Origin: Muricea muricata
Lineage: Eukaryota; Cnidaria; Anthozoa; Malacalcyonacea; Plexauridae
Length of the DNA stretch: 64,000 nt
Direction of reading: 5' to 3'
NCBI GenBank assembly: GCA_963855995.1
Contig: CAWLCR010000063.1
Span: 124,001 to 188,000 of the forward strand
Position numbers and translations under genes: made by a program. A model generated the notes under the pieces. That model saw only the letters and a list, made by a program, of their open reading frames with translations, was not told where the DNA came from and did no database searches. Shown here piece after piece: positions 52,362 to 59,931 of the stretch (its first letter is position 1; the number at the start of each line of letters is the position of its first letter).

Positions 52362-52372
52362 TAGACTTGCTC

Positions 52373-52423
52373 CAAGTCTCTCTCTCGCGCGCGGAAAGGG
52401 GAAGGGGCGGAGAGAGAGACTTG
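52373..52423. repeat. Left terminal hairpin of the transposase-helicase element
   Basis: CAAGTCTCTCTCTC (52373-52386) pairs perfectly with 52410-52423, leaving a GC-rich loop. Its first bases are the last bases of the TIR. Confidence 0.85.
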
Positions 52424-52536
52424 TTAAACTTGACAGGATTTCAATCGTATTATAAATTCCGCGGGAAAATTAAAAGGGGCGGAGTTAATTGTAGTTAATT
52501 TCGCTGATGTAAATTTCATATAATACAATTTGCAAA

Positions 52537-55500
52537 ATGGAAAATACATATACACCAACAAAGGTTTATACGTGAACTTTATCTGAGAATTCCTGTGTCT
52601 GTTTACAATGTAACGAAACTGTTTTTAACCCTTTTTATAAGAGGAGGCTATTTTCGGCCGAATCCGGCAAGTCGAAGGCATGCCAGCTTTTGGAGAAAGT
52701 TCTTGATGTAGAAATAAATCAAAGCACAGTTGAAACTGATATTATATGTCGCAATTGCAATGATAAAAACTCTCGGCTTGTTTGTAAACTTGAGGAAACA
52801 AGATCGGTATATGAAAATAGCAAAAAGCAACGCCGTGCTCAGGGCAAGGAGAATCAATTGCTCTGTGTTAAAAGGCTCGCGAAAGATGGCCGAGAGATGC
52901 CTGCGAAGAAACGTTTGAATATGGAAAGTGAAAATACTAACAGTTTACCGAAAAATGCTTTTTCAACCAAAGAATTAATAATTGCAACCCATGCGAAAGC
53001 TACACAAACTGAAGAGCCGCCTGACAAAGTTTCTGCTGTAAACGTAAGTTCACAACTCCACATACAAGTATTTTATATTAAGTGCTTTATATGTACCAGT
53101 ATAATGCCCTTTATATTCAAATAATTCTGAGTACATTAGTCATTGACGTTATTTTCTGTTTTTGTACGTCAGCAAGTACTGTTTCTAATAAGTTTTGTGT
53201 GTAACAACTTGTGGTTAATTACATCTTTACTGTATCAAAAACTAATACAAAACATATATGCTCTTGAAAGAATACAAAACCATTCGAACGTTTTTTATTT
53301 GCAAATTATTACAAGTCCGACCTCCAAAATAGAATATATGGCATAAACGGTAATATAATTTTGTAATAGCTTTAAATTGTAAATATTTTGCATTTAGGTT
53401 GTCCTCAGTTATCCTAACAGTCAAACTCGAAATGTTAGATTGGAAAAAAAACTTTATCCGCTTGGTCGGCATTTAGCTATGGGCAACATGAAATCTTTTG
53501 TTGCTGCTGTCATGAAAATTGATGAAATTAAAGATCTTTTGTACGAACAAGCCTGCGAGGAAATAAACAGTGAAATCCAAAGACTTTGTAGCAAATCTGA
53601 TCCATCAATTTTACGAAACAGTTCCAAAGAGGCCTTGGAGTCATTCTCGTGGAGTGACATCGATAAAGAACTGCAAAACAGGACGCCAAGATTTGTTCAA
53701 TTTGTGAAAGCAGCTGTAAATAACCCGTCTCATTCTCGTAACGTTCACAAGAAAGATGATATAATTCTACCCGCAATGTGTGACGCTGCTTGCAAACTAA
53801 TTTCAATATTTAATGAAAATATGAGTTTGCCGCGGAAAATAAAAAGCGTCGTTTTAAAGAAGGCTGGACTAAAGAAAGTGGGCTTTTTGCGATTTCAGTC
53901 TCTATACGATTGCATGTCATACAACTCAACATGCACCATCTTTGAGTCTCTTGGAAGTCGCTTCGATGAGAAGTTGTATGAATGGAAAGATGCAGTGGAA
54001 AAGGGTGTACAGAAAGAAGAAGATTTGCTTAGAAAGTTGGATGATGCAAAAGGTTATGAAGATCATGAGTTAGCAACGAAAATAGCCACAGAAATTAGTG
54101 ATCACCAAGAAACCATGCATCCGGGATATTCTTTTACTGGAGACAATGTTGACAGTAGAGTTACTCCTAGACAAATGACAATTAAGAATCAGACAAGTGA
54201 CATCCACTTGTTCCAATATGTAGCATTTAAGAACAGAGTCTCTGGTAATCACCTATCAAATGAGACACCAACTGTTGCATGCAAGGATATTCCTCTTACA
54301 AGTTTTTTGCCCAGTGTAAGTGAACAACAGTTACTAGTTGATGAACTAACTGTGCTGGTAGGACATAAATGGGCATCTTATATTCCTTCATTAAAGTGGT
54401 TTGATGACATCCTGCCAAAACACATACAACACAACTACATGAATCAAACAAAGACAAAAACAGAAAAGGTAAACCTATTTGTAGAAAGCACACAAAGTTC
54501 CAACTTATTGGTTTTGCTACTTAATGTAAACAAAGAAATTTGTTCCTCATTGTTTTTTTCTAGCAATTGAGCTTTGTCAATTCCCCTGACAATATCAAAG
54601 CATTGGAAAGTGTTTCTTTAGGTTAAAATACTCATCAATTAATTTAGATCTTCAATATATACTTCATGGGGCTATGCAATTGATTCTATTATTAATAACA
54701 TGTTTGACTTTTTATTCACAGGTTAATATGGGTGTTCTACACAAGAATGAACAATACGAAGATGATATGGTGGAAATCCTGGAGTGGCTCCACAAATACG
54801 TCCCTATAATCACTGCACTTCTACGGATGGGAAAGAAGGTGAAATCAAACAACCAGTTAACACTCTCAGTGGCGGAGATTATTTGACTTTTGAAAGACAC
54901 AAAGGTGCCCAGTCATCTATGCAAGATTCACGGACACCATCTACCAGACTAGAGGGATTGATACCAAAAATTGAAGATTTTCATATGCAAGCAGAATGGC
55001 ATTCAGTAAGTTTTGTCAGGTGCAATTAAAAATTAGATCTCATTGTTCTCAAATTTAGTTTATCCCTTAAAATATGATTTATCAGATTACAATTTGCAAG
55101 CTACCAAAAATTTCAGGTGCTTCAGTGTTGATATATATATATATATATATATATATATATATATATATATATATATATATATATATATATATATATATAT
55201 ATATATATATATATATATATATATATATATATATATATATATATATATATATAGTATCACATGCCAGAAATTTTTCCCTTACTTTTTAATACTAATAGCT
55301 GATAAAGTAACATCAAGTTCCATTACAGGTAATATTTGAGCATCTCTACAGTACCAGTTCTGCCAGAGATATTGGAACAATTTATGCTGCAAGAAATGCA
55401 ATAAATGCAAGAAATGTTACTAAAGATCCAAGTAAGAATTTCTATGCTGCCGAAGAGTTAATGAAAAAGGTATTACATGCATATCTTATTGTGAGGGCAA

Positions 55501-56453
55501 TGGAACATTTTGGTCTATAGTCAGTAGATGGGAAACCCACTCAGAATACATACACAGGATTGGAAAGTGATAAAGATACAAAAAAGAATTATGTTCAGAA
55601 GACCGTTCAAGATTTCATTTATTCCCATGTTATAACTGCAGTTCCTGAGGTCAAGGAGAAAGAGTCAAGGATTGTCACTTTACAATGCCACATTTGTGGA
55701 AAGCAGTATGTAAGGAAAGGAGCATTAAAGAGGCATAGGGAGAAAGTACACCAGGAGACCACAACTGAGTTAGAGCCAACTGTTGACAAGGATCGAGGAT
55801 GAAGATCATGTCTACAACTACACACGTCTACTATTGATACTCCTGCTGTTGCTACACAACCATGACAATGCCATTCGTCTAGGTGATGGAGCCCGCCTCA
55901 TACGGTTGTACAAATTTTTTTATCTGTATTTCAAGGTCTCACATTGCCCAAAATATGCTTATGGAACACTTGAGTTATTGGCACAAGTCAACCATTTGCT
56001 TAGCCCAAGAATGGCGCACTACCTAACTTGGAATAGGTTTGTAAACCATAAAGGGAAGTTGGATACAAATTTGCCAATGGATCTCGAGGTTGAGCACGAT
56101 AACAAATATTTTAAAGATGACATTTGTGCATACAGAGGTGAGATTACTGAAAAAAGTGTTTCAAGAGTAAGCAAAAGCATGCAAATCACAGAAAGTATTA
56201 TTAAGAATTTTGACAAGATAACCCACATCAAGTGTCCTTCAGGAGTCCATACAGATGCTTCAATTGAAGATGATGTAATGCACTTGGTGGATCAATTTAA
56301 AGGACTTAAATTATACACCAAAATTCCAGGAAGATATCATACGGCATTTCCAAAGATAAAAAACAACATTTTAGAAGATCTTGATATGACAAAGCTTAAA
56401 GCTTGGATAAGTAAATCATTAGCTTCATTTGGACAGAAGCATTACTACAAATA
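52537..56453 (+). pseudogene. DUF6589-type transposase, multi-exon, decayed
   Basis: Five or more exons. Exon 1 (52537-53043, then GTAAGT) starts MENTYTPTKVYT, has TGA at 52573-52575, then a ZAD-like C-x-x-C (CVCLQCNETVF) and a second pair (ICRNCNDK). Exon 2 (53399-54468) holds LRFQSLYDCMSYNSTCT, FTGDNVDSRVTPRQMTIKNQ (signature block, likely catalytic Asp) and DIHLFQYVAFKNRV. Exon 3 (54721-55003) has a frameshift near 54805, then GGDYLTFERHKGAQ and LEGLIPKIEDFH. Exon 4 onward (55328-) reads SARDIGTIYAARNAINARNV, a stop at FGL*, a C2H2 finger (CHICGKQYVRKGALKRH), a shift near 55795, then DAI-like IRLGDGARLIRLYK, MAHYLTWNRFVNHKGK and LPMDLEVEHDNKYFK, ending KHYYK. At least four lesions make it non-functional. 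Confidence 0.8.
55133..55253. repeat. (TA)n microsatellite in a transposase intron
   Basis: About 120 bp of TA repeats between exons 3 and 4 of the DUF6589-type gene. Confidence 0.95.
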
Positions 56454-56505
56454 GTTAGGTAGGATGCCTGTGTTGGGAACTGGTACATAATGGTATGTCA
56501 TATTC

Positions 56506-59665: not shown

Positions 59666-59830
59666 TACGAAATTTGATATAAAAGCAAACCTATAAAGTA
59701 TACTTCGAATCTCTCAGTTTAGTATTTAAATTGTAAATTTATTAAAACAATTAGGCAATTACAGTAAACAAAGTAACAAACTTCCCCCCCCCCGCAAAAT
59801 GCATATCAGACGCTGATTGGTTGATATGTC

Positions 59831-59852
59831 ACTGACCCATTTCTGGGTCAGT
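59831..59852. repeat. Short perfect hairpin near the helicase 5' end
   Basis: CTGACCCA-TTTC-TGGGTCAG, between the helicase start and the right terminal hairpin. It could be a regulatory or subterminal binding site. Confidence 0.55.
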
Positions 59853-59876
59853 AAATTTGGCGCGCTGCAAGTTTGA

Positions 59877-59920
59877 AAAGTCCGTATTTCTCAGGGTGGC
59901 GGGAAATAAATACGGACTTT
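59877..59920. repeat. Right terminal hairpin of the transposase-helicase element
   Basis: AAAGTCCGTATTT (59877-59889) pairs perfectly with 59908-59920, with an 18-nt loop. It mirrors the position of the left hairpin but has a different stem sequence. Confidence 0.85.
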
Positions 59921-59931
59921 GAGAAAGTCTA

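Follow-up and report, generated by a model that had tools for sequence, protein, structure and literature searches.

What kind of element occupies positions 52362-59931 of a 64,000-nucleotide stretch of the anthozoan Muricea muricata (assembly GCA_963855995.1, contig CAWLCR010000063.1, positions 124,001 to 188,000 of the forward strand; the whole stretch is here called the window), and why would a gene for a RecQ-like helicase stand there facing a gene for a protein with DUF6589, a domain of unknown function? The evidence makes it likely that the interval is a DNA transposon of the AcademH type that carries two genes and was active recently, in which the DUF6589 protein would be the transposase and the helicase would have a role at the element's ends or in repair, the helicase's task being the least certain step of this explanation.

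A complete element in the window

The interval forms a complete DNA transposon of 7,570 bp, with the DUF6589 gene on the + strand and the helicase gene convergent to it on the - strand. Its left tip (TAGACTTGCTCCAAGTC, 52362-52378, + strand) and its right tip (TAGACTTTCTCAAAGTC, written as the reverse complement from 59931; 59915-59931, - strand) are terminal inverted repeats that match at 15 of 17 bp, each with a palindrome inside it, GACTTG-CTC-CAAGTC on the left and GACTTT-CTC-AAAGTC on the right; the only two positions at which the tips differ pair with each other inside the palindrome. Both flanks carry TGATACACC (52353-52361 and 59932-59940) as an exact 9-bp target-site duplication. The matching ends, the duplication and the two convergent genes had all been proposed in an earlier note made from the letters of this DNA, and all three are borne out.

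A chance match of the ends was considered and rejected: among the 98,612 pairs of identical 9-mers that the window holds at distances of 100 bp to 20 kb, low-complexity 9-mers being excluded by requiring at least three different letters, only TGATACACC adjoins an inverted repeat of 17 bp in which at least 14 positions match. When the tip pattern was sought in the window with up to three mismatches, five places were found, and the match was exact only at the two tips of the element.

Gene pairing in the source genome

The genome that was searched comprises 453 Mb in 74 contigs; introns and repeats suggest a eukaryotic, probably animal, host. The DUF6589 exon gave at least 151 scored matches there (345 candidates) and the helicase exon at least 90 (471 candidates); the 150 DUF6589 and 90 helicase matches listed were merged into at least 148 and at least 86 loci, respectively. 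A convergent DUF6589 locus lies within 8 kb of 54 of the 86 listed helicase loci, in one case the neighbor is on the same strand, and in none is it divergent. About 0.5% per helicase locus would be expected by chance, and a fortuitous pairing of the two genes was rejected on this comparison. The pairing is thus supported as the rule in this genome, not a single case, and DUF6589 gains a concrete home, with at least 148 loci in one genome, at least 54 of them beside a convergent RecQ-like helicase and inside or near transposon ends. Weighing against this are the listed helicase loci that have no listed DUF6589 partner, up to 32 of the 86, a figure that is an upper bound.

These counts bear on the idea that the helicase is a mere passenger that contributes nothing to transposition. 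Relatives resembling miniature inverted-repeat transposable elements (MITEs), which hold neither gene, have moved, as a passenger helicase would allow and as is expected where proteins act in trans; however, the strictly convergent arrangement at 54 of the 86 listed loci, in families as little as 28% alike, makes a mere passenger improbable.

The convergent pair was found in five families read in detail: F1, that of the window; F2 (L029-L031); F3 (L032); F4 (L034); and F5 (L035/L036). A fragment of the helicase is present at a sixth locus, L033, whose ends could not be placed with certainty. Similarity among F1, F2 and F3 is 60-70% for the DUF6589 exon and 47-49% for the helicase, and for F4 and F5 the values are 27-36% and 26-32%; the families rank alike by either gene. 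Both genes lie within shared ends in F2 (L029, L031), F3 and F4, as the earlier note required of a true two-gene element; in L030 the left end is missing, and the ends of L035 and L036 fall outside readable sequence (contig start or masked letters). The family F6, at C1:55.19 Mb, is known from its ends, with 7,479 bp between the tips. The tip pattern TAGACTTNCTNNAAGTC has 183 matches in the genome, against four for a reversed control.

Within F1, the left 639 bp of the element matches 30 places, the window itself and 29 others, among which are four near-complete matches to this left end at 98% and a copy split in two at 96-97%, the rest being shorter or more diverged. In L009 and L012, which keep both ends but have internal deletions when compared with the window element, the ends fall at the same bases, with the duplications GCTGTGCTA and AGTCAAGCG; copies ending elsewhere would have refuted the earlier note. 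L010 and L011 could not be followed to their right ends. Other sequence interrupts the right half of both near-complete copies, from position 8137 in L010 and past query position 5820 in L011, and is followed in L010 by a long open frame of a different kind. The MITE-like relatives L014-L027, of about 360-850 bp, are made of the element's two ends and are much diverged.

The two genes

The + strand gene is composed of several exons, the earlier of which match relatives in other families. The first readable exon (52576-53043) has relatives in other families and shows, by reading, paired cysteines of what is probably a zinc finger. It is followed by an exon with GDNVD, the candidate first catalytic aspartate (53398-54468, limits set by reading), which can be aligned with other families, and by an exon frame with GGDYLTFER, the candidate second aspartate (54766-55026). 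The last exon frame (55774-56454) holds DUF6589 (PF20231, E 2.6e-20), in agreement with the earlier call, and the E..N block with the candidate catalytic glutamate. DUF6589 is the only Pfam match of the putative transposase above its cut-off; the first readable exon gave none, and DUF6589 itself was not matched in the two earlier exons scanned. A (TA)n microsatellite occupies 55131-55253, between the exons.

The D of GDN or IDN, the GD.LT motif and the E..N block are conserved across the families aligned, and the three acidic residues are candidates for an Asp-Asp-Glu (DDE) catalytic triad. A search of solved structures with the DUF6589 exon returned nothing at E 0.07 or below, and a search of viral contigs for relatives of this exon gave 22 pattern stretches, none of which was confirmed. 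A point against the proposed explanation is that the transposase of the window copy is broken: its frame is interrupted, as in the exon frame at 54766-55026, at places where the two or three other copies aligned there differ from it. In two other copies the last-exon frame is open for 379 and 378 codons.

The helicase gene has two exons on the - strand: a first one (59193-59665, start codon and splice donor by reading) with a DEAD domain (E 1.5e-17) and the GSGK and DESH motifs, and a second one (57138-58551, its start taken as a splice site by reading) with Helicase_C (E 8.9e-14). Open frames of 477 and 174 codons cover the two exons in the window copy. A second (TA)n microsatellite (58886-58987) lies in the intron. 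The closest solved structures of both exons belong to the RecQ family (RecQ, BLM, WRN, RECQ1), as the earlier note had supposed. The RecQ zinc-binding domain was matched weakly in F2 (E 1.7e-4, below the cut-off) and, by Pfam, not in the window copy. The helicase is also encoded in the elements of F2 to F4.

Duplications of relatives and affiliation of the element

Exact 9-bp duplications flank all 12 elements of at least 450 bp that have both tips intact, the window copy included. In F2 these are AGTCAATGG, CCAATTACC and, at C1:29.92 Mb, ACTTGAATC; in F3 GCTAATGAT, in F4 CCTCAAAAT and in F6 GAACCTTCC; and three gene-less relatives of 638, 454 and 621 bp have ATGTGAAGT, CATTTCTAA and AACATTTGC. 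The ends of seven of the 12 were set without asking for a duplication, those of L009 and L012 by alignment and five by the tip pattern; for the window element, L029, L031, L032 and L034 the flanking repeat helped to find or propose the ends, and in these only the length of the duplication is therefore informative. Among ten older relatives one duplication is exact at 9/9, three stand at 8/9 and six are illegible.

Very small elements (L040-L044, L054; 62 to about 100 bp) also occur, consisting of nearly only the two palindromic ends, two of them in tandem at L044. As proof of 9-bp duplications the tiny hairpin elements were rejected, none of the five having an exact one (L043 reaches 8/9).

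Duplications of 9 bp and inverted tips would point to a DDE-type reaction. The DUF6589 protein would then be a DDE enzyme, with the D of GDN, the D of GGD and the E of E..N as its catalytic residues, which might bind the tip palindrome together with an internal block and cut and join the element with a 9-bp stagger. The duplications and tips of Kolobok elements probably differ from those found here.

AcademH, of the Academ superfamily, has been found in animals and fungi (Kojima, 2020, Mob DNA 11:15, by its title as cited in PMC10045372), and in the citing paper the duplications are of 9 or 10 bp in AcademH and of 3 or 4 bp in AcademX, with links to a helicase and a nuclease (PMC10045372). Since a helicase together with a 9-bp duplication is what this published description of AcademH contains, the element is probably AcademH, an assignment made by description. 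RecQ-carrying DNA transposons are, then, already in print, both as AcademH (PMC10045372) and as KolobokH (PMC9587614); KolobokH and Kolobok-1_CCri are DNA transposons with a RecQ helicase, as is the element here, and in Kolobok-1_CCri it lies on the complementary strand.

That RecQ helicases also joined Kolobok elements (PMC9587614) lends something to a different affiliation, in which DUF6589 would define a separate, unnamed superfamily outside Academ that took up its helicase independently, as in KolobokH; a full-text literature search found no mention of DUF6589, which is in keeping with it. We nevertheless hold it to be improbable, given the fit of helicase and duplication to AcademH and the report of that group from both animals and fungi (PMC10045372). 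The earlier reading, a DUF6589/RecQ-like two-gene transposon, is partly supported overall, and its parallel with the helicase-encoding Academ elements is apt as regards the helicase and the 9-bp duplication; its further proposal, that the helicase would unwind DNA at ends or gaps, is a conjecture.

Paired stems at the element ends

The ends have an additional feature that the earlier note did not mention. A dyad longer than the tip palindrome begins in the second half of the palindrome of each F1 tip: on the left, an outer arm (CAAGTCTCTCTCTC, 52373-52386, + strand) and an inner arm (GAGAGAGAGACTTG, 52410-52423, + strand) form a perfect stem of 14 bp, and on the right, AAAGTCCGTATTT (59908-59920, - strand) and AAATACGGACTTT (59877-59889, - strand) form one of 13 bp. 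In each stem the outermost 6 bp repeat a single box, GACTT[G/T], in inverted copies, and this box recurs at each end in alternating orientation. The ends also hold the internal blocks GACTTGTTAAACTTG (52418-52432, + strand), which may be a second site for the transposase, and GACTTTTCAAACTTG (59868-59882, - strand). Folded as single-stranded DNA, the two F1 ends give z scores of -4.5 and -3.3.

F2, F3 and F6 share this layout with other letters, the stem starting 11-13 nt from the tip and measuring 12-14 bp in all four families, with the exception of L029, whose right end has a stem of 9 bp. Stems of 9-14 bp are present at all 16 ends of eight long elements (three of F1, three of F2, F3 and F6) and at four of the six ends of three gene-less relatives, 20 of 22 in total, and in a shuffle test none of 2000 sequences reached the observed stem at any of the six F1-F3 ends. 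The inner 7 bp of the stems differ between families and, in F1 and F3, between the two ends of one element; across six end types the inner 7 positions pair all the same in every one of the 42 cells. Only the true pairing, out of 720 combinations of outer and inner arms, gives 42, the next best giving 40, and where all partners are mismatched at most 25 of the 42 cells pair. The end types are partly dependent, as F2, F3-left and F6 look related, and likewise F1-right and F3-right; because of this relatedness the paired differences look like two-sided changes. Tip positions 8 and 12 form a Watson-Crick pair in 86 of the 100 tips listed (183 pattern matches overall).

Stems that vary and still pair would be explained by hairpin ends or by a mutation process that builds palindromes. 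According to the former, a DDE-type transposon would have ends recognized partly by shape: each end would have to extrude a stem-loop, as a cruciform or a single-strand hairpin, that joins the tip to an internal box, and the element's own RecQ-like helicase would open or resolve it during strand exchange. The stem-loop might hold tip and internal block together whatever the length of the spacer, and the helicase would be encoded because the ends can fold; repair or replication after transposition is an alternative task for it. Hairpins near an element end matter for movement in Helitrons and in IS200/IS605, from which the present element differs in having no Rep/HUH or PIF1-type protein. As to this group, the titles and the first parts of abstracts in the literature searched, which excluded the primary AcademH paper, mention no hairpin or palindromic ends.

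We regard required hairpins as a tentative and rather doubtful proposal, and several observations weigh against it. F4 has both genes, but only a single 8-bp stem near each end, reached by 13 and 12 of 2000 shuffles and lying inside a terminal repeat of about 90 bp; the 454-bp relative has an exact 9-bp duplication, but neither dyad nor inner arm at either end; and among 15 ends of an unusual tip type, read for about 115 nt, only two show a stem of at least 12 bp, although some of the others may belong to short elements in which the partner arm sits at the opposite end. Furthermore, in the 52 kb of the window examined beyond the element, stems of at least 12 bp occur at the same offset for 0.96% of 14,818 starts, many of them in (TA)n, and pairing is lost in old copies such as L016, L017 and L020.

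That loss, and the mobile relative without a dyad, are what would be expected if the dyads had no selected folding role and arose by quasi-palindrome correction, that is, by template switching between inverted GACTT boxes in which one arm is copied onto the other; the inverted copies of the box in the outer 6 bp would be a natural start for such fold-back copying. This origin is a serious possibility, short of a probable one, as the length and position of the stem recur in F1, F2, F3 and F6 despite different inner sequences.

The dyads could, on the other hand, be inverted pairs of binding sites, read in double-stranded form by a dimeric zinc-finger transposase with no hairpin involved. The box shared in alternating orientation would suit such sites, as would the internal block GACTTKTNNNNCTTG, seen at 14 of 22 ends scanned (10 of the 22 read for 115-120 nt only), and the cysteine and C2H2-like motifs visible by reading in the transposase. 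In contrast, reading of the sequence alone needs no pairing, and the inner 7 bp pair while differing between the ends of one element in F1 and F3; the spacing is also variable, the internal block beginning anywhere between positions 50 and 106 as counted from the end and the spacer changing in length even among F2 copies. Paired binding sites of this kind appear somewhat unlikely.

Were the paired, sequence-free stems indeed under selection, shape-based recognition of ends in a cut-and-join transposon would become testable, and the selected stems would give a reason for the uptake of RecQ helicases by several groups of transposons.

Other features of the window

Other sequences of mobile origin probably lie in the same window. 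An open frame of 591 codons at 10435-12210 (- strand), which matches Transposase_21 (tnp2) and DUF4218 weakly, in both cases below the cut-off, is probably a CACTA-type transposase, and a reverse-transcriptase fragment at 45224-45874 (- strand; RVT_1, E 1.2e-23) probably comes from an element similar to long interspersed nuclear elements. Long open frames at 18269-20129 and 21363-22319 (+ strand) and at 42749-43546 (- strand), without Pfam support, resemble what we take to be pieces of Penelope-type elements. Finally, an (ATT)n array of 279 copies extends over 837 bp at 62135-62971.

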